From: a virus
Virus record (IMG/VR): IMGVR_UViG_3300021197_001150
Span: 1 to 55,723 of that record
DNA length: 55,723 nucleotides
Reading direction: 5' to 3' (one strand)
The notes under the pieces are model-generated. The model was not told the DNA's origin and made no database searches. It saw only the letters and a program-made list of their open reading frames with translations. Of this stretch, positions 2,769-51,558 are shown in pieces; within the stretch, counting starts at the first letter, position 1, and each line of letters begins with the position of its first letter. The position numbers and the translations under genes are program-made.

Positions 2769-3599
2769 ATGACGCAGTTAATATCCCCAAATAAATTTAC
2801 GAACACAGTTGGCCTTTTAAGGTCATTTTTTTTGGACAAAGGATTCTTAGAAGTCCATACCCAAAACAGACTAAGCATACTTGCCGCATGTGAAGATCCA
2901 TTCAATGTAGCAACATACCAATACGCAGGCAACACTTGGCCATTGCCGCAAACAGGCCAGATGTGGTTAGAACATGAATTATTAAGTAGCCCCGATAGTA
3001 AGGGGTTTTTTTGTGTCTCCACTTCCTATAGACAAGAGCCTAATGCAATACCAGGCAGACATGATATAATATTTCCAATGTTTGAATTTGAGATGCCAGG
3101 TAGCATTGATGATCTTAAAGCAATGGAGTATGAACTATGTGAATACTTAGGCTTTGGTAACATTACAGAAAAGACTTATAGAGACTGGCAAGAGCATTAC
3201 GGACTTGACTGGATCAAAGAGATGGACGCTGAACATGAATTAAAGATGGCGGCAGACTTTGGTCAAACAATGATTACAGACTTTCCAGAGATGACATCAC
3301 CGTTTTGGAATATGAGTAGAAACGATGGCGGCGGCACAAGTAAAAAGATTGACGTTATCTTAGGTGGTATGGAAACTATTGGGTCAGCAGAGCGTTCATG
3401 TGACGTTGACATGATGCGTAATACATTCCACACAATTACAGATGGTGCTTATAGTGAACTACTGTTTAAACTGTTTGGCAAAGAACGTGTAGTAGCAGAA
3501 CTTGAAAAGTTTTTAGAGTTTGACTTCTTTCAAAGAGTAGGCGGTGGTATAGGTATTACACGTATGATCCCGGCATTAGAAAAGATCAATAAGATATAA
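2769..3599 (+). CDS. Class II aminoacyl-tRNA synthetase-like core (AsnRS/AsnA-like)
   Basis: 276-aa protein with only the catalytic core of the Asp/Asn/Lys class II synthetases or asparagine synthetase A; no anticodon-binding OB domain. Motif 1 resembles LLRSFFLDKGFLEV near the N-terminus (the usual Pro after it is not evident). Motif 2 is SYRQE...RHDIIFPMFEFE (about residues 92-115). Motif 3 is GGGIGITRM near residue 262, closest to the GGGIG-x-x-R of AsnA. It could charge a tRNA, make asparagine, or modify another target. The ATG follows AGAAGGAAAAG; an upstream TTG in frame lies inside the terminator T-run. It ends six bases before an Asn-anticodon tRNA, suggesting a linked function. The coding sequence contains T-runs and a terminator-like hairpin at 2988-3012. 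Confidence 0.8.
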   Translation: MTQLISPNKFTNTVGLLRSFFLDKGFLEVHTQNRLSILAACEDPFNVATYQYAGNTWPLPQTGQMWLEHELLSSPDSKGFFCVSTSYRQEPNAIPGRHDIIFPMFEFEMPGSIDDLKAMEYELCEYLGFGNITEKTYRDWQEHYGLDWIKEMDAEHELKMAADFGQTMITDFPEMTSPFWNMSRNDGGGTSKKIDVILGGMETIGSAERSCDVDMMRNTFHTITDGAYSELLFKLFGKERVVAELEKFLEFDFFQRVGGGIGITRMIPALEKINKI

Positions 3600-3605
3600 A
3601 ACTAA

Positions 3606-3690
3606 TCTGGGGTGGTGAAATCGGTAAACACGCACGATTGTTTCTCGTGTGACGAAAGTCTTGGAGGTTCGAGTCCTTCCCCCAGAGCCA
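3606..3690 (+). tRNA. Asn-anticodon (GTT) tRNA with long variable arm, CCA encoded
   Basis: Folds cleanly: acceptor TCTGGGG/CCCCAGA (3606-3612, 3680-3686), discriminator G3687 plus CCA; D-stem GTG/CAC; anticodon stem CACGA/TCGTG with loop TTGTTTC, anticodon GTT at 3640-3642; T-arm GGAGG/CCTTC with loop TTCGAGT. Between anticodon and T arms is a 13-base variable arm containing GAC-GAAA-GTC, as in class II tRNAs (Leu, Ser, Tyr), and the D-arm resembles tRNA-Leu. U1-A72, G73 and the GUU anticodon are instead those of tRNA-Asn. U at position 37 is abnormal, because ANN-reading tRNAs carry modified A37. Confidence 0.85.
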
Positions 3691-3745: not shown

Positions 3746-3772
3746 AATTTAAATATAGCATAAGGAGAAACC

Positions 3773-4837
3773 ATGCCACCACGTAATCATAAGAGTTGGT
3801 TAGCACAACCAAACGTAGAATCAATCAGCAGTTCAGCATATAACGATCCAGAAGTATTTGCACAAGAGCAAGAACGTATCTTTTCAAAGGTATGGGTACC
3901 TATGTGTCACAAATCGGAAATGCCTGAGCCAGGTAATTTTAGAACAACACAAATTGCAGGAGTTAATGTTATTGCAGTCAATAACGGTGACTCAATTAAG
4001 TCTTATTTGAATACAGGTAAGTTTAATACACCTTCAGGAACAATGACACGAGTAGAGTTTTTAATGGACGACTATACTCCGTTACCTACAGAAGTAAAAC
4101 ACGGAGGTATGGTATGGACAACACTTGATCCTAATCCTACGCAGAGTGTAGAAGAATGGACAGCAGGAGCATTTGATTGTATTGCAGATGCTATTGACAC
4201 AGAAGAAATGGAAGTGTTCCATTACCACAAAGCAATCATAGATACAAACTACAAACTATGGCATGATACTAACAGTGAATTCTATCATGACTTCATGCAC
4301 TACTTTAATCGTGTAAGTGGATTCAACGATGAATACTTTGCACGTAAGAATATACCTTTTGACAACGGTCATGTAAACGTAAGCAGTTTCACAGTAAACT
4401 ATGAGGAGTATGACGGCTTCGAAGATAGAGGTGAACTGTCCTTTCCTAATCTACCACCCAACCAATGGTATATGGTAGACTTGTTTCCCGGATTTAATTT
4501 TAATCTACGTGGAAGTGCATATCGTTCAGACTCAGTAACTCCATTAGGTCCTAACCGTGTACTGATTGAGTTTAGGGGATACGGACTAAAAAAAGATACT
4601 AAAGAAGAACGTTTGACACGAATCAAACATCACAACAGTATATGGGGACCATTTGGTCGCAACCTCCATGAGGATCTAATTGGAGTTGCTGGGCAAGGAA
4701 CAACTATGCGTGAAGGTACAGAGAACAGACGTGTACTGCATGGTAGACATGAGAACGGTACTATACATGATGAAGTTGGTATGCGCCATTACTATACCGA
4801 ATGGGGTAAGTATTTGGATATTAATCCTTATCAATAA
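3773..4837 (+). CDS. Rieske-type oxygenase alpha-subunit relative lacking the Rieske cluster site
   Basis: 354-aa protein laid out like ring-hydroxylating oxygenase large subunits. Residues 40-80 look like the start of the Rieske domain (W-x-P-M-C-H, then GNFRTTQIAGVNVIAVNNG), but the CxH and CxxH loops that bind [2Fe-2S] are absent: the sequence goes from SYLN at 77-80 to a GGMVWTTLDP-like end of the domain at 111-120, much shorter than normal. The mononuclear iron domain is recognisable: NYKLWHDTNSEFYHDFMH (159-176) supplies His172 and His176, and Asp301 in HEDLIGVAGQG fits the third ligand. It may be an iron enzyme with another electron source, or a binding protein. ATG follows TAAGGAGAAACC. 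Confidence 0.8.
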   Translation: MPPRNHKSWLAQPNVESISSSAYNDPEVFAQEQERIFSKVWVPMCHKSEMPEPGNFRTTQIAGVNVIAVNNGDSIKSYLNTGKFNTPSGTMTRVEFLMDDYTPLPTEVKHGGMVWTTLDPNPTQSVEEWTAGAFDCIADAIDTEEMEVFHYHKAIIDTNYKLWHDTNSEFYHDFMHYFNRVSGFNDEYFARKNIPFDNGHVNVSSFTVNYEEYDGFEDRGELSFPNLPPNQWYMVDLFPGFNFNLRGSAYRSDSVTPLGPNRVLIEFRGYGLKKDTKEERLTRIKHHNSIWGPFGRNLHEDLIGVAGQGTTMREGTENRRVLHGRHENGTIHDEVGMRHYYTEWGKYLDINPYQ

Positions 4838-16519: not shown

Positions 16520-17217
16520 TGAAATTTGTTTTTGACGTAGATGGAACTCTTACCCCCAGCCGCTCTCCTATTAATAAAGAATTTGAAGAATGGTTTTATA
16601 ACTTTACTAATAGACACAAAGTCTATCTTGTTACAGGTAGCGACTATGAAAAAACTATAGAGCAATTAGGCGAACGTATATGCGAGTCTGTTGATACTGT
16701 TTATAATTGTAGTGGTAGCAGTGTATGGAAACAAGGTAAAAATGTTTATAATAATGATTGGCATTTGCCAATAACTGAAAGATCATTTTTATTGCAGTGC
16801 TTATCTAAAAGTAAATTTGTATTGCGTACAGGATTACACATTGAAGAACGTAAAGGTATGATTAACTTTAGTGTTGTAGGTCGTAATGCTACATTAGGTG
16901 AACGTAAATTATACGTCAAGTGGGACACTGAACAGAAAGAGCGTAATCGAATTGCGTCAGAGTTTAATAGTATGTTTCCTAATTTGGTTGCAACCGTAGG
17001 AGGTGACACTGGTATAGACATTAGTCCTCGTGGCAGTGATAAAAGCCAAATACTAAGAGATTTTGATAAAGAAGAAATTGTATTTTTTGGAGATGCCATG
17101 TACGAAGGCGGTAACGACTATCCGTTGGCAAAAGCAATACTTGACAACTGTATAGGAAGATGTTATACTGTTAACAGTTGGAATAGAACATGGGATATAT
17201 TAAAAGATTATGATTAA
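16519..17217 (+). CDS. Phosphomannomutase-like HAD hydrolase
   Basis: 232-aa HAD-superfamily protein resembling eukaryotic-type phosphomannomutase. Motif I is FDVDGTLTPSR at the N-terminus (the PMM form), VTGSD near residue 38 is motif II, and GGDTGIDISPRGSDKSQ near 160 with FFGDAMYEGGNDYPL near 186 supply motifs III and IV. PMM would interconvert mannose-6-P and mannose-1-P to feed GDP-mannose, fitting the neighbouring glycosyltransferases. The ATG at 16519 overlaps the previous stop; a longer frame from 16495 is rejected because homology starts at KFVFDVDG. Confidence 0.8.
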   Translation: MKFVFDVDGTLTPSRSPINKEFEEWFYNFTNRHKVYLVTGSDYEKTIEQLGERICESVDTVYNCSGSSVWKQGKNVYNNDWHLPITERSFLLQCLSKSKFVLRTGLHIEERKGMINFSVVGRNATLGERKLYVKWDTEQKERNRIASEFNSMFPNLVATVGGDTGIDISPRGSDKSQILRDFDKEEIVFFGDAMYEGGNDYPLAKAILDNCIGRCYTVNSWNRTWDILKDYD

Positions 17218-18295
17218 ACGTATAGGTTTCGCATGTAAGTACATGCACCCTGATCAAACACAAAAGAAGAAGTTGTTAGAAGAAATACAACGACCTTTGA
17301 ATACACGTTCAACTACAGTACAATGGTTGAACAGACAAACACGTGAAGTTGCTGAAGAACGACTGTGGGACATTATGGTCCATAACATACAATCGTATTT
17401 TAATCTTATTAACTATGTAGGAGGACTACCGAATGAACGTAGAATGGTTAGGTTGGGAAGTGACGTCCTACCTGTTTATACTCAGTCTGATTGGTCTTAC
17501 TTCTGGCGCAAGCCTGATGTACGAAAATATTGCGAGACCAACTTCGCTCACGTCGGCGCAAAAGCTCGTGAACTTGATGTCAGGTTGTCTATGCATCCTG
17601 GTCAGTTTACTGTACTTGCGTCAGATAATCCTGACATCGTAAATAGAAGTATAGAGGAGTTTGAATATCATGTTGATTGCATCAGATGGATGGGCTACGG
17701 CCAATCATTCCAAGACTTTAAATGCAACGTCCATATATCAGGCAGGCAAGGTCCAGCCGGTATCATCAATGCTCTCCCAAGATTATCTCAAGAGGCGAGA
17801 AACGTTATTACGATCGAGAACGACGAGATGTCGTGGGGCATCGATGCGTCACTCGAACTTGAAAAACATGTCGCACTCGTACTTGACATACACCATCACT
17901 GGGTGCGTACAGGAGAATACATACAACCCTCCGACGATAGATATCATCGCGTAGTTGACAGTTGGCGTGGTGTACGTCCTACTATTCATTACAGTGTATC
18001 ACGTGAAGACTTACTTGTAGGACATGATCCTAACGTATTACCTAACATGGACGATTTACTTGAACAAGGCTTTAAGAAACAAAAACTACGAGCTCACAGC
18101 GATATGATGTGGAATCATGCTGTTAATGACTGGGCTCTACAGTTTAACGACTCTGCAGACATTATGGTAGAGTCTAAACATAAGAACCTTGCTTCACACA
18201 GACTGTTAGAACATAAGGTAAATACAGTATGCGATTTAAACAAATCAAATCCTGTGAACGAACCAAAGCAAGAACTTGTCAGTGCGAAAGCCTAA
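17210..18295 (+). CDS. UV damage endonuclease (UvdE/UvsE-like)
   Basis: 361-aa TIM-barrel endonuclease that nicks DNA 5' of UV photoproducts. Family blocks are IGFACKYM at the N-terminus, [13 protein letters not shown] near residue 125, NVHISGRQG near 178, IENDEMSW near 202 and LDIHHHWV near 224; these His, Glu and Asp residues bind the metals. Such repair suits a phage of sunlit water. It overlaps the preceding gene by eight bases, and its last 67 bases are also the start of the SOD gene in another frame. Confidence 0.9.
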
Positions 18296-18786
18296 GCAAG
18301 ATTACTGAAGCAGAAGACTCAAATGTTGTAGCCGTATGTGACTTAGTCCATTCGGACACTGTTAAAGGTACTATCTTCTTTATGCAAGGACCAGGCACTG
18401 CTACTCTTATAAAGGGTAAGATAACTGGGTTAACTGAAGGTGAACATGGATTTCATGTACACGAATTTGGCGATTTATCCAACGGATGCGAGAGTGCAGG
18501 CGGGCATTATAATCCAGACGGGGTAAAGCATGGAGATCTCAAAAATGGCCATGTCGGTGATTTAGGAAATATCACAGCCGGATCTGACGGGATATCAGAT
18601 TTTTCAATTAAGGCAGAACGTATTGACTTAATAGGCGAAAGAAGTATTATTGGTAGAGCAATAGTAGTTCACGAAAACACAGATGATTTGGGTAAAGGCG
18701 GAGACGCTGAATCGTTGAAAACCGGAAACGCAGGTGAGAGATTGGCTTGCGGGGTAATTACACTTACAAACGGAGAAAAGAAATGA
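18229..18786 (+). CDS. Cu/Zn superoxide dismutase
   Basis: Dismutates superoxide. All ligands are present: His76 and His78 (FHVHEFGD), His93 (GGHYNP), His101, His108 and Asp111 (HVGDLGN), and His148 (VVHEN); Cys87 and Cys174 fit the conserved disulfide. The 185-aa frame begins with about 25 polar, Cys-containing residues and no evident signal peptide, although bacterial SodC is usually periplasmic. The start at 18229 (AAGG upstream) lies inside the UvdE gene, and no better start codon occurs before the domain. The stop overlaps the next ATG. Confidence 0.93.
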
Positions 18787-38203: not shown

Positions 38204-38581
38204 ATGGCGGCACAACAAAAAGGACGTAAAGTATACAAGTCAATGCAAGGTAAACAAGTTGACATGGATCTATTACGTCAAAAAAACGAACTTACTCCGG
38301 CTGTAGGAAATGCTCGTGTAAATGCACGTGGCGATGAATTAGGCCCAGGCGGTAAGATTATTAGAAGACGTGAAGATGTTATGGCTGACTTTTACAGAGA
38401 CAATCCTAATGTTGTTACAGACGAATTACCTGTTGCGGCAAAGGCTGAAGAACCTGTAAACAAAGTTGTAAACGAATCACCCGTTGCTAAAAAAGCAACT
38501 AAAAAAGTTGAAAAAGAAAGTGTTGTTGACGACGAATGGGTCGAAGACGACGATGGCAATTTTGTAAAAAAAGGTGACTAA
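38204..38581 (+). CDS. Conserved T4-like marine phage protein, unknown function
   Basis: 125-aa protein with a basic, conserved-looking N-terminal 65 residues (KVYKSMQGKQVDMDLLRQ, then ELTPAVGNARVNARGDELG) and a low-complexity Lys/Glu/Val/Asp tail. I recall closely similar N-termini in cyanomyoviruses beside structural or chaperonin genes. Strong TAGGAGAAG ribosome-binding site; stop overlaps the GroES-like start (TAATG). No activity can be assigned. Confidence 0.75.
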   Translation: MAAQQKGRKVYKSMQGKQVDMDLLRQKNELTPAVGNARVNARGDELGPGGKIIRRREDVMADFYRDNPNVVTDELPVAAKAEEPVNKVVNESPVAKKATKKVEKESVVDDEWVEDDDGNFVKKGD

Positions 38582-39027
38582 TGTCTGATTTAGATTACGA
38601 AGCAATGGCGGCTGGAAAGCCTGCTATACCAACTAAAGTTACAGGTAGTATTAGACCAATCCACGATCGTGTTATTGTAAAACATATGAACTTCGGCGAA
38701 CAAAAGACCGCTGGAGGAATTATTATTACAAGTGATGATGGTAAGGATAGAGGTATTAAGCCACGTTGGGGACAAGTTGTTTCCAAAGGTAACACAAATA
38801 AAGATCCATATGACGTAGGTGATTGGATTCTTGTTGCACATGGACGTTGGACACGTACTTTCCAAGTTGATGAAAACGACACTGGAAATTATGTAGACAT
38901 GCGTACAGTTGAAGCAGAAGGAATTCTTGCTTGGCAAGATGAACAACCAGAAGAAACTATGTTTGGTGCCTTTTCAGGTGCTGGTGATAATCAAGCACAC
39001 AGTCCAGAGGACTTTGGCGCTAACTAA
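38581..39027 (+). CDS. GroES-like co-chaperonin (T4 gp31 analogue)
   Basis: 148-aa co-chaperonin 10-type protein. After 17 residues comes a Cpn10 core: IRPIHDRVIVKHM (about 22-34), a mobile loop region ending TAGGIIIT (about 41-48), PRWGQVVSKG (about 60-70), YDVGDWILVAHGRW (about 76-89) and EAEGILAWQ near the C-terminus. It would cap host GroEL for folding phage proteins, as gp31 does for the T4 capsid protein gp23. Overlaps the previous gene (TAATG). Confidence 0.88.
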   Translation: MSDLDYEAMAAGKPAIPTKVTGSIRPIHDRVIVKHMNFGEQKTAGGIIITSDDGKDRGIKPRWGQVVSKGNTNKDPYDVGDWILVAHGRWTRTFQVDENDTGNYVDMRTVEAEGILAWQDEQPEETMFGAFSGAGDNQAHSPEDFGAN

Positions 39028-40831: not shown

Positions 40832-41176
40832 ATGACATACCTTGTAAATGAAAATTGTGTAAAGTGTAAGCACATGGACTGCGTAGAAGTTTGTCCAGTA
40901 GATTGTTTTTACGAAGGTGAAAACATGCTTGTTATTAATCCTGATGAATGTATTGACTGTGGAGTATGTGTTCCCGAATGTCCTGTAGATGCAATTATTA
41001 CAGATACAGAAGATACAGACCAACGATGGTTTAAAATTAATCAAGAATACGCAGACATTTGGCCTAATATTACTGAGAAAGATGATAATGCTGTTCCGGA
41101 AGATGCAGAAGATTATGCCGGAGTTCCAGATAAGTTTAACAAATATTTCTCTCCGAAACCTGGGGCAGGGGAATGA
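40832..41176 (+). CDS. FdxA-type 7Fe ferredoxin
   Basis: 114-aa ferredoxin. Cys9, Cys17 and Cys50 fit a [3Fe-4S] site; Cys21, Cys40, Cys43 and Cys46 (in [12 protein letters not shown]) fit a [4Fe-4S] site. Two extra cysteines at 12 and 25 could allow a second [4Fe-4S]. The 45-residue C-terminal extension is typical of FdxA. It may supply electrons to the phage oxygenases or to host enzymes, and would need the Fe-S assembly helped by phage IscU and IscA. Stop overlaps the parvulin start. Confidence 0.93.
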
Positions 41177-47978: not shown

Positions 47979-48794
47979 ATGGATTATTATGAAGTTTTAG
48001 GCGTTCCAAGAAACGCATCCGAAAAAGATTTAAAGTCAGCATACAAGAAATTGAGTATGCAACACCACCCTGACAGGACTGGTGGTGACGATTCACGATT
48101 CAAACAAATCAATGAAGCATATAGTACTTTAAAAGATCCACAAAAAAGACAGCAATACGATAATCCTCAACCACAATATTCACAAGGATTTGGTCCAGGT
48201 GGCTTTGAAGGAATGGGAGGGTTTGAAGATTTATTTACACAAGCATTTGGACAAGGCTTTCAACAGCAACAACGTAGACCGCAACGTAATTCAAATGTAA
48301 CTATAGCATGTGATATTACATTAGCAGAAGTATACTCAGGTAAAGGTGTAATTGCTACATTTAGAACAAGAAGTGGTAAAGAACAAACTGTTAACATTGA
48401 TATTCCTAAAGGATCAAGACACGGCGACATTATTAACTATAACGGCTTAGGTGATGATAGTATACAACAGTTACCAAAAGGTGACCTCCATGTAAAAGTT
48501 CGTATATTGCGTCATCCAAACTTTGATGTAAACGGATTTGACCTGCACACACAAACAGAAATTGGAGTATTTGATTTGATATTAGGTACTGCCACAAATT
48601 TAAGTTTGCCCAACGGACGTACTATAAGTATTAATGTTCCACAAGGCACACAACCAGGCACTACATTAAGCATACACGGACAAGGTCTCCCAAACTATAA
48701 TACAGGTCAAGCAGGAAACGTATATCTAAATATAAGAGGTATAGTTCCTAAGAACTTAACAGACGAACAAAAAGATATATTAAGGAAGTTATGA
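47979..48794 (+). CDS. DnaJ/CbpA-like co-chaperone
   Basis: 271-aa type II J-protein. The J domain (1-62) has HPD at 30-32, a Gly/Phe-rich linker follows (about 63-95, FGPGGFEGMGGFEDLF), and the C-terminal substrate-binding beta domains (100-271) lack the cysteine zinc finger of DnaJ. It would stimulate host DnaK on phage or host proteins. The stop overlaps the peptide deformylase start. Confidence 0.92.
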   Translation: MDYYEVLGVPRNASEKDLKSAYKKLSMQHHPDRTGGDDSRFKQINEAYSTLKDPQKRQQYDNPQPQYSQGFGPGGFEGMGGFEDLFTQAFGQGFQQQQRRPQRNSNVTIACDITLAEVYSGKGVIATFRTRSGKEQTVNIDIPKGSRHGDIINYNGLGDDSIQQLPKGDLHVKVRILRHPNFDVNGFDLHTQTEIGVFDLILGTATNLSLPNGRTISINVPQGTQPGTTLSIHGQGLPNYNTGQAGNVYLNIRGIVPKNLTDEQKDILRKL

Positions 48795-49315
48795 AATTAA
48801 AATTAGTATTACACCCAAATGAATGGTTAGAGAAACAAGTTAAGCCTTTTGATTTTAATAGTCTTGATGCCAAAGATGTTGAGAAACAAATGATTGATAT
48901 TATGGATAAGAATGCAGGAGTTGGTCTAAGTGCTAACCAAGTTGGTCTTGATGGACAAGTTTTTATTTTAAAGCCACACGAAATGGAAGGCTTTGATGAA
49001 CCGTTTGCACTATTCAATCCCGAAGTTGTTAAAATAGATGATAGGGTTATTGAAGGTGAAGAAGGCTGTTTAAGTTATCCAGGTTTATACTTTAAAGTTA
49101 AACGTGCAACTGCTTTGGTTGCCAAGTATCTTGACTCTAACGGCAAAGAGTGTACAATAGAGTTTGTAGGTTATAATGCAAGGATCTTTCAACATGAATA
49201 TGATCATTTACAAGGCATAAACTTTACAGATAGAGTAAGTAAACTTAGATTAGATATGGCTAAGAAGAAACAACAAAAATTATTTAAAAAATATAAGGTG
49301 GATGTTAAATGGTAG
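48791..49315 (+). CDS. def: Peptide deformylase
   Basis: 174-aa metallo-enzyme removing N-formyl groups from nascent proteins. Motif 1 is GVGLSANQVG (43-52, Ser where Ala is usual), motif 2 EGCLSYP with Cys93, motif 3 QHEYDHLQG with His135, Glu136 and His139. Marine phage deformylases typically lack the long C-terminal helix; this one keeps a short basic tail. Coupled to both neighbours by overlaps. Confidence 0.95.
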   Translation: MKLKLVLHPNEWLEKQVKPFDFNSLDAKDVEKQMIDIMDKNAGVGLSANQVGLDGQVFILKPHEMEGFDEPFALFNPEVVKIDDRVIEGEEGCLSYPGLYFKVKRATALVAKYLDSNGKECTIEFVGYNARIFQHEYDHLQGINFTDRVSKLRLDMAKKKQQKLFKKYKVDVKW

Positions 49316-51558
49316 AACCGAGCGACGAGTTACAAGCAGTATTCGATAAGTCAATTAATGACGCTAAGAAGTTAAGACACGAGTATGTTACTCTTGAACA
49401 CTTGTTATTCTCTATGCTATGCGTAGATAACTTTGTAAAAGTAGTTGAAGGTGCTGGTGCTGATCCTGAGTTCATTAAAAAGAACATTGAACATTATCTC
49501 AAAACAGAATTAAACGAAATTAAAGTCAAAGATGACATTAAAAAGTTTAAGCCAAAGAAAACTGCAACAGTAGAACGTGTATTAAATAGAGCATTTACAC
49601 AAGTATTGTTTAGTGGACGTAACAGTATTGAAGTTACTGATGTGTTCTTAAGTATTATGGGCGAAAAGAAAAGTTGGTCATACTATCATATTCAAAAGTC
49701 AGGTCTTACAAAAGAAGGCTTTTCAGATTACTTAAACACTGAATTAGATACTATCTATGAAGATGAAGAAATGCGTCAAGTTGCTGAAAAGGCTTTACGT
49801 GACTTTACAACTAACCTTAACAAAGAAGCAGGTAATCAAAAGATTGATCCTGTAATTGGTCGTGCAGAAGAACTTGAAGGCATTGCACTTGCATTAGGCA
49901 GGCGTTCAAAGAACAATGTACTACTTGTTGGTGATCCAGGTGTTGGTAAAACTGCTATTGCAGAAGGACTTGCATATAATATTGTTAATAAAGCAGTACC
50001 AGAGTTCTTACAAGAGTATTCAGTATATAACTTAGACATTAGTGCTATGTTGGCTGGATCAAAATACAGAGGTGACTTTGAAGAACGTTTTAAACTTGTA
50101 ATGAGTGCAATTAAAAAGCAAGGCAAAACGATTGTATTCATAGATGAAGCACACATGATGAATGGTGCTGGTAATGCAGGGTCAGGTGGGTCGAATGACT
50201 TGGCTAATATGTTAAAGCCTGCATTAGGTAAAGGTGATATTAAAGTTGTAGCATCAACTACTTGGGAGGAATACCGCAAATACTTTGAAAAGGATCGTGC
50301 ATTAATGCGTAGGTTCCAACGTCTTAGTGTTTCAGAACCTGATAAGAATGTAACTACAGAAATTTTACAAGGTATTAAAAAGTATTACGAGGAATTTCAT
50401 TCAGTTAACATCACTGATGATGCAATTGATGAAGCAATTAAGTTAAGTGTGAAGTATATGGCTGATAGAAAACTACCAGACAAAGCAATTGACTTATTAG
50501 ACTTGGCTTGTTCACGTTTTAACTTAAAAGAAGTAACAGTACGTGTTGTAGGCAAAGAAGAAATACAGTTTGAACTTGCAAAAGCAGTTAAACTACCGCC
50601 AGAACAAGTACAACAAAAAGAAACAAGTAACCTTGCTAACTTAGATAGCAATCTTAAGAAGCAAGTATACGGACAAGACACTGCAATAGATGAAATTGTA
50701 GATAAGATTCTTGTTGCACAGGCAGGACTTAAATCAGAAAACAAACCAATTGGATCGTTTGTGTTTATGGGTCCAACTGGTGTAGGTAAAACGGAAACAG
50801 CAAGACAACTTGCAAATGAATTAAGTGTTGAACTTGTAAGATTTGATATGTCAGAGTATCAAGAGAAACATAGTGTTGCAAAACTAATTGGATCACCTCC
50901 AGGATATGTAGGTTATGAAGATAGTGCAGGACTATTGATTACAAAATTACAAGAACACCCGAACTGTGTATTACTATTAGATGAGATTGAGAAAGCACAC
51001 CCAGATGTTTCACAAATCTTGCTACAGTTAATGGACAACGGAAAAGTTACAGGTAGCAACGGTAAAGAAGCCGATGCAAAAAATGCCATTCTGATTCTAA
51101 CAACCAACCTTGGTGCAGAACAGGCAGAGAAAAATGCAATCGGCTTCAATGAAGATATGGAAATGGATTACGAAGATACTGAACTTAAAAAGTTCTTTGC
51201 TCCAGAGTTCCGTAATAGACTTGATGGTGTTGTAGCATTTGGTAAACTTGAGAAGAATGTAATGATCAAGATTGTTGGCAAGTTCCTTGTTGAACTTAAA
51301 GACATGCTTACAGAGAAAAAAGTTACTGTTGATATTACAAATGAAGCCATTGATTACCTTGTTGATGTAGGCTTTGATAGTAAGATGGGTGCAAGACCTT
51401 TACAAAGAACTATTGATAAAGAGATCAAGAAGGATCTAAGTAAACTATTATTGTTTGGTGCTTTAAAGACAGGCGGACACGTAGTTATCGATGTTAAAGA
51501 CAATGCTATTGTACTTGTTACGGATAAAGCAACAAAACCCGTAACTGTTGATGCATAA
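49309..51558 (+). CDS. ClpA-like AAA+ unfoldase
   Basis: 749-aa Hsp100 protein, same architecture and length as ClpA (758). Clp N-domain at 1-140; D1 Walker A GDPGVGKT (208-215) and IVFIDEAHMM; D2 Walker A GPTGVGKT (about 488-495) and LLLDEIEKAHPD; C-terminal APEFRNRLD and KMGARPLQR. There is no ClpB-type coiled coil. An AIGF-N-E loop near residue 610 matches the IGL/IGF loop with which ClpA/ClpX dock on ClpP, so it probably feeds host ClpP. It might redirect proteolysis of host proteins. Start overlaps the deformylase stop. Confidence 0.92.
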   Translation: MVEPSDELQAVFDKSINDAKKLRHEYVTLEHLLFSMLCVDNFVKVVEGAGADPEFIKKNIEHYLKTELNEIKVKDDIKKFKPKKTATVERVLNRAFTQVLFSGRNSIEVTDVFLSIMGEKKSWSYYHIQKSGLTKEGFSDYLNTELDTIYEDEEMRQVAEKALRDFTTNLNKEAGNQKIDPVIGRAEELEGIALALGRRSKNNVLLVGDPGVGKTAIAEGLAYNIVNKAVPEFLQEYSVYNLDISAMLAGSKYRGDFEERFKLVMSAIKKQGKTIVFIDEAHMMNGAGNAGSGGSNDLANMLKPALGKGDIKVVASTTWEEYRKYFEKDRALMRRFQRLSVSEPDKNVTTEILQGIKKYYEEFHSVNITDDAIDEAIKLSVKYMADRKLPDKAIDLLDLACSRFNLKEVTVRVVGKEEIQFELAKAVKLPPEQVQQKETSNLANLDSNLKKQVYGQDTAIDEIVDKILVAQAGLKSENKPIGSFVFMGPTGVGKTETARQLANELSVELVRFDMSEYQEKHSVAKLIGSPPGYVGYEDSAGLLITKLQEHPNCVLLLDEIEKAHPDVSQILLQLMDNGKVTGSNGKEADAKNAILILTTNLGAEQAEKNAIGFNEDMEMDYEDTELKKFFAPEFRNRLDGVVAFGKLEKNVMIKIVGKFLVELKDMLTEKKVTVDITNEAIDYLVDVGFDSKMGARPLQRTIDKEIKKDLSKLLLFGALKTGGHVVIDVKDNAIVLVTDKATKPVTVDA

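Follow-up and report, generated by a model that had tools for sequence, protein, structure and literature searches.

How does a phage-encoded oxygenase subunit work when the iron-sulfur cluster that should supply its electrons is missing? The question is raised by a gene of a marine virus, at positions 3773-4837 of the IMG/VR record IMGVR_UViG_3300021197_001150, which we analysed over its whole stretch of 55,723 nucleotides (the window). Phage proteins of this kind are already in print. Henriques and De Marco (2015) defined the motif of MsmA, the alpha subunit of methanesulfonate (MSA) monooxygenase, as a long-spacer Rieske signature CxH-X26-CxxH, and reported that CXH-Xn-CXXH is lacking in the MsmA of phage HMO-2011, in one of the two MsmA of its host IMCC1322, and in many MsmA from GOS and viromes (PMC4433239). 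Surveys of SAR116 list msmA and are silent on the missing cluster (PMC8547437, PMC12262181), and viral msmA has been catalogued as a sulfur AMG (PMC10134843).

The reading frame is open throughout, begins with ATG and is preceded by a ribosome-binding site rated as good. The features of the gene are the following:

3762-3767, + strand: ribosome-binding site AAGGAG (sequence)
3773-4837, + strand: msmA-like gene of the cluster-less kind, encoding 354 aa; the product is an iron-only alpha subunit of a Rieske oxygenase of the methanesulfonate monooxygenase type (ORF, Pfam, alignment, structure)
3773-4018, + strand: N-terminal Rieske-domain scaffold, residues 1-82, fold retained (matches to the N-terminus of Rieske oxygenase alpha subunits; structure)
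4010-4090, + strand: residues 80-106, where the cluster loops have been lost (alignment against intact MsmA)
4091-4822, + strand: catalytic (helix-grip) domain, residues 107-350 (PF00848; retained invariants of intact MsmA)
4277-4279, + strand: E169, position of the carboxylate that bridges from the neighbour's Rieske cluster to the iron (invariant in at least 213 viral homologues; putative role by analogy with E205 of CntA, PMC7948474)
4286-4288, + strand: H172, iron ligand (alignment, viral homologues)
4298-4300, + strand: H176, iron ligand, with Hx3H spacing as in intact MsmA (alignment, viral homologues)
4673-4675, + strand: D301, iron ligand within HEDL (alignment, viral homologues)

Pfam matched the catalytic domain PF00848 in residues 144-348 of the protein (E 2e-7) and returned no Rieske domain. 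Using NCBIfam and the PDB, we found that the first ~80 residues match Rieske oxygenase alpha subunits such as glycine-betaine monooxygenase, and that these matches end where the cluster loops would start. The PDB sequence match was naphthalene dioxygenase (2b1x, E 1.6e-10), and PHROGs gave no family at a significant E-value. The sequence-only reading of this gene had described a Rieske oxygenase relative with a recognisable N-terminal fold and deleted cluster loops, and had proposed superposing a predicted structure on the naphthalene dioxygenase alpha subunit. The fold agreed: AlphaFold predicted a complete alpha-subunit fold with mean pLDDT of 82 and pTM of 0.85 (alignment of 33 rows, plasmid-derived rows left out), and over residues 14-350 the model superposed on 2b1x_A with a Z of 32.4 (325 residues, 3.0 Å), far above what chance would give, and on NagG with a Z of 32.9. 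As the fold is complete, the scaffold of the Rieske domain has been retained and the cluster-binding loops alone are missing. The alignment to intact MsmA placed the loss at CPHRG, CMFHAW and about 45 surrounding residues, and showed E169, H172, H176 and D301 in place. These results confirm that the viral protein is a Rieske-oxygenase alpha subunit without a cluster but with a mononuclear iron site; it has the fold, the 2-His-1-carboxylate site and the bridging Glu of these subunits, but not the CxH...CxxH motif. It shares the full alpha fold (Z 30-33) with naphthalene dioxygenase, NagG and CntA, enzymes with an inter-subunit Asp/Glu relay, which, unlike the viral protein, bear both metal centres on every chain.

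The family could be named as well, which goes beyond the earlier reading. By tblastn, the viral protein is 71 % identical to gp61 of Puniceispirillum phage HMO-2011, annotated as methanesulfonate monooxygenase and cluster-less in the same way, and 54 % identical to an oxygenase on a Methylobacterium nodulans plasmid, where the gene order (oxygenase, NTF2-like beta, Rieske ferredoxin, reductase, TauE) is that of msmABCD. On this sequence kinship, the viral protein is MsmA. With intact MsmA (M. nodulans plasmid, Filomicrobium; 54 % overall) it shares the catalytic domain, the Hx3H iron ligands and the bridging Glu, including most MsmA-specific catalytic residues, but it lacks CxH-X26-CxxH, and no MsmB, MsmC or MsmD was found in the window. 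The three-residue spacing between the histidines, noticed earlier as unusual, is real. However, it is neither an oddity nor a part of the cluster loss, since intact Rieske-bearing MsmA (EFYHDFMH) has the same Hx3H; this also disposes of the spacing as a sign of altered chemistry.

To collect relatives, we ran four IMG/VR scans, which yielded at least 213 distinct viral proteins and represent a sample, not a census. Among the matches listed, CxH...CxxH was absent, and E..H...H and HEDL were present, in 213 of 213 distinct homologues, which bears out the claim that His172, His176 and Asp301 are retained. Even the scan queried with the intact M. nodulans MsmA returned cluster-less proteins as its best matches. 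With so many distinct viral proteins in the same state, a deletion caused by sequencing or assembly is ruled out. The catalytic domain seems to be strongly constrained: 99 of the 112 positions invariant in intact MsmA are retained in at least 98 % of the viral proteins listed, as are 16 of the 19 positions that set MsmA apart from two related oxygenases. Median pairwise dN/dS was 0.085 for sequences close to the window gene and 0.10 for phages taken at random, values that are approximate because dS is near 1; at the sequence level they show purifying selection on the phage cluster-less MsmA. A lyase or isomerase, or a mere ligand-binder, had also been considered for this protein; the retention of the catalytic invariants and of the electron-bridging Glu speaks against both. 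The protein must obtain its electrons elsewhere, as had been argued, because the cluster loops are absent.

Regarding the phage itself, no close isolate was found. HMO-2011 infects SAR116. The window phage differs from it in type, having T4-like genes for replication and tail, and encodes a thymidylate synthase; SAR116 is its putative host, by gene kinship only. The window contains several genes related to iron and oxidative stress, namely a redoxin (peroxiredoxin, 2-607), an IscU/NifU_N scaffold (1729-2106), a Cu/Zn superoxide dismutase (18229-18786) and a ferredoxin (40832-41176). The ferredoxin is of the 4Fe-4S type and lies 36 kb from the msmA-like gene. A set of genes for repair and protein quality, rich for a single phage fragment, lies at 17210-18295, 38581-39027, 47979-48794 and 49309-51558 (UvdE-type UV endonuclease, GroES-like co-chaperonin, DnaJ-like and ClpA/B-like, the last two judged by sequence only). 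A short way upstream of the msmA-like gene, a protein with the class II synthetase fold (tRNA-synt_2, AsnA/AsnRS-like, 2775-3599) is encoded directly next to a tRNA-Asn(GTT) at 3606-3690, and a synthetase-like gene occurs near the msmA-like gene in at least 27 viral loci. In some phages, A-type Fe-S carriers or glutaredoxins are found near cluster-less msmA, which is not general; putative IscA/SufA-like A-type carrier genes, recognised from their sequences, adjoin it at L282 (5642-5989, 7451-7849) and L289 (2493-2798).

We also searched bacterial genomes for the same protein. A GTDB scan returned 17 cluster-less relatives with 73-79 % identity; with few exceptions, they came from SAR116 or from bins with the same locus. 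Two cluster-less msmA genes, in bins labelled 'Hellea' (L098) and 'Rickettsiales' (L101), were rejected as bacterial, because by the look of their genes the contigs are phage-like, and both were counted as phage. Wherever a SAR116 locus had enough sequence, it encoded a second MsmA with a perfect CxH-X26-CxxH (CPHRG...CMFHAW). In this Rieske-only partner, two segments are deleted or substituted, one of ~16 residues with E-x2-H-x3-H and one of ~20 residues with the Asp; the protein is fused to an FAD ferredoxin reductase (Pyr_redox_2/Reductase_C), reaching 790-857 aa where fused. A motif scan found the Asp loop missing in all Rieske-only subunits. It also gave [D/E]xxHx3-5H matches in three of them, which we dismissed as iron sites, as they belong to a different conserved Gly-His region and are not family-wide. 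In the complete SAR116 genome G091 (2,753,527 bases) the partner is in an intermediate state: it shows the changes E to K, H to Q and H to K and has lost the Asp loop; its predicted structure is weaker (pLDDT 68), but still that of an alpha subunit (Z 28).

The usual order at the SAR116 locus is ABC transporter, fusion, MsmB, MsmC, an ORF of 274-281 aa, cluster-less MsmA and LysR, followed by TauE, a ketopantoate hydroxymethyltransferase-like gene, formate-THF ligase and FolD. The locus was annotated using Pfam (e.g. the TauE sulfite exporter), with the LysR regulator, formate-THF ligase and FolD assigned by sequence; this predicted gene content fits MSA methylotrophy. The 274-281 aa protein (L089 6921-7742, L193 13055-13882) has no Pfam match and is conserved between msmC and cluster-less msmA; it is possibly a chaperone or assembly factor. 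Two loci depart from the usual pattern. In G091 (L193 8412-12999), a cluster resembling dmsABC, judged from its sequence to encode a molybdoenzyme, is inserted between msmC and the 276-aa ORF, and in the single-cell genome G008 (L194 13189-15572) the fusion is interrupted into frames of 330 and 465 aa, either a natural split or a sequencing error.

The two halves occur together. Among 136 genomes of the SAR116 order, the cluster-less subunit is present in 12 and the Rieske-only partner in 11, and every genome with the partner also holds the cluster-less subunit. The sole cluster-less genome with no partner (G012) has a contig that starts inside the fusion, and G135 carries an ordinary intact MsmA and neither half. 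Pairwise identity of the partners is 89.6 % in the Rieske part versus 44.2 % in the dead catalytic part, and dN/dS is 0.012 (5 usable pairs) versus 0.178 (4 usable pairs). For the SAR116 cluster-less subunits, identity is 92.5 % in the catalytic part versus 80 % in the empty N-terminal scaffold. At the level of sequence, constraint thus mirrors the division of labour predicted for the two subunits.

On the phage side, the situation is different in that only the iron half was found. Queried with the partner, two viral scans gave two contigs each, matching in the reductase region only, and in 17 viral records of 48-316 kb the partner query matched nothing but each record's own cluster-less gene. 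Clustering of neighbours over at least 213 viral loci revealed no common ferredoxin or msm neighbour.

In Rieske oxygenases, the alpha subunits form a head-to-tail ring, and the iron of each receives its electrons from the cluster of its neighbour, across a bridging Asp or Glu. Cluster and iron are ~45 Å apart within a chain and ~12 Å apart between neighbouring chains (PMC12445004), and in CntA the transfer between subunits has been shown to run through a bridging Glu, which is essential (PMC7948474). Because it is the neighbour's cluster that feeds the iron, a cluster-less chain would be competent if its neighbour bears a cluster. By analogy, the invariant E169 suggests that the inter-subunit relay is still in use. 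As SAR116 carries exactly the complementary half, the viral protein most likely joins the host enzyme and borrows its electrons. We therefore regard it as likely that the phage iron-only subunit becomes part of the host oligomer and is supplied with electrons in trans by a host Rieske cluster, where the hetero-assembly, the transfer, the substrate and the benefit to the phage are what we infer. During infection, the phage subunit would join the host alpha (and beta) subunits and be reduced in trans. The donor in most msm-bearing SAR116 genomes would be the Rieske-only MsmA-reductase fusion, encoded at the same locus as the host cluster-less MsmA, and in gammaproteobacterial-type hosts it would be the ordinary intact MsmA. 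The phage would in this way add active sites and mature no new Fe-S clusters. To judge from conservation and from the genes at the locus (transporter, TauE, formate-THF ligase, FolD), MSA is the probable substrate, and the products would be formaldehyde, supplying one-carbon units and reducing power, and sulfite. As a speculation, the formaldehyde could serve one-carbon metabolism; the window does encode a thymidylate synthase. One difficulty is that a head-to-tail trimer mixing Rieske-only and iron-only chains would hold no more than one productive pair per ring, an inefficient arrangement unless the oligomer differs; the structure predictions are of single chains.

A similar division is known from NdmCDE, the N7-demethylase of caffeine-degrading Pseudomonas, of which NdmE is a GST-like third protein. 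There, likewise, a cluster-less iron oxygenase with an intact iron site works with a Rieske domain that has been split off and fused to a reductase (PMC4408171). Such a reductase-fused Rieske partner is present in SAR116 and absent from the phage records examined. Unlike in NdmCDE, an entire alpha subunit whose iron site has decayed is the donor in SAR116, the fused reductase is of a different class (Pyr_redox_2), and the catalytic half also stands alone on phages.

The main alternative would be an autonomous iron enzyme that dispenses with a Rieske partner and draws on a ferredoxin, of the phage or of the host, or on a peroxide shunt. The window does encode a 4Fe-4S ferredoxin and a peroxiredoxin, and the phage records examined gave no partner genes. 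However, a Glu known as the relay from a neighbour's Rieske cluster would hardly be expected in all 213 of the homologues among the matches listed if no neighbour were involved, ferredoxin is no common neighbour across the viral loci, and the host form of the protein is accompanied by its Rieske-only partner. We consider such an enzyme unlikely, and as electron donor the reciprocal, iron-dead SAR116 partner is much better supported than the phage ferredoxin, which the sequence-only reading had put forward; that reading is, on the whole, partly supported.

Rather less probable still is a non-catalytic subunit that enters host MsmA rings as a decoy or regulator and inhibits or tunes MSA oxidation. 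It would account for the retained assembly scaffold, and mixed rings would have fewer relay pairs, but the strict retention of the iron ligands, the bridging Glu and 99 of 112 catalytic invariants would be unexpected, and in SAR116 the cluster-less form is the only iron-bearing alpha subunit. We attach an equally small probability to the same split architecture acting on another substrate, such as a small sulfonate or a methylated compound. The MsmA annotation of the phage and SAR116 proteins is indeed based on homology, yet the 16 MsmA-specific positions are kept in at least 98 % of the viral proteins listed, and the SAR116 locus includes TauE (from Pfam) and formate-THF ligase- and FolD-like genes. 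Assembly of the phage subunit with the host enzyme and oxidation of MSA remains the reading that we prefer.

To address the origin of the two halves, we inferred an IQ-TREE phylogeny of 83 rows, with the fast-evolving Rieske-only partners left out. The cluster-less proteins did not form one clade. Six viral proteins (L273, L274, L278; L276, L279, L282) were placed among MsmA of the intact, gammaproteobacterial kind. In the catalytic domain, L276 has 90 % identity to the MsmA of Candidatus Thioglobus and 64 % to the window protein, and the corresponding values for the N-terminus are 72 % and 46 %; both ends point the same way, which argues against a hybrid origin. A single clade of all cluster-less rows was rejected (AU p 0.003, a nominal value, as the tested groups were named after the first tree was seen), so that on this phylogeny at least two losses of the cluster in phages are shown. 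Within the alpha-type phages, the cluster-less subunits of SAR116 make up a single shallow clade, and the alpha-type phages as a group excluding SAR116 were rejected (AU p 0.024, likewise nominal). The Rieske-only partner groups with intact MsmA of Hyphomicrobiaceae and SAR116. This topology suggests a probable capture of the phage gene by SAR116. In the simplest history, phages would have captured the gene and lost the cluster, a host would then have captured the phage copy, and the iron site of the resident protein would have decayed; gene flow in the opposite direction, from unsampled hosts, is possible. The full account, in which phages repeatedly made msmA iron-only, an ancestor of SAR116 captured one such gene, and the resident MsmA lost its iron site and became fused to a reductase, has in our estimate an even chance of being correct. 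The reciprocal split, the repeated loss and the probable host capture appear to be undescribed in the searchable literature.

These results offer a candidate answer to the puzzle from 2015 of an 'MsmA' on abundant marine phages that is unable to accept electrons alone. The reciprocally deleted pair is a natural test of inter-subunit electron transfer and ring stoichiometry in Rieske oxygenases. For surveys of the sulfur cycle it means a caution, as matches to phage or SAR116 'msmA' do not equal complete MSA monooxygenases. A rule for phage metabolic genes may also be suggested, in which the phage brings a self-assembling active site and leaves the Fe-S cluster to the host. Perhaps the catalytic subunit of a host enzyme has been replaced by a viral one; if this is true, SAR116 would possess a bacterial methanesulfonate oxygenase with a catalytic subunit of viral descent, and its resident subunit would have been reduced to an electron relay.
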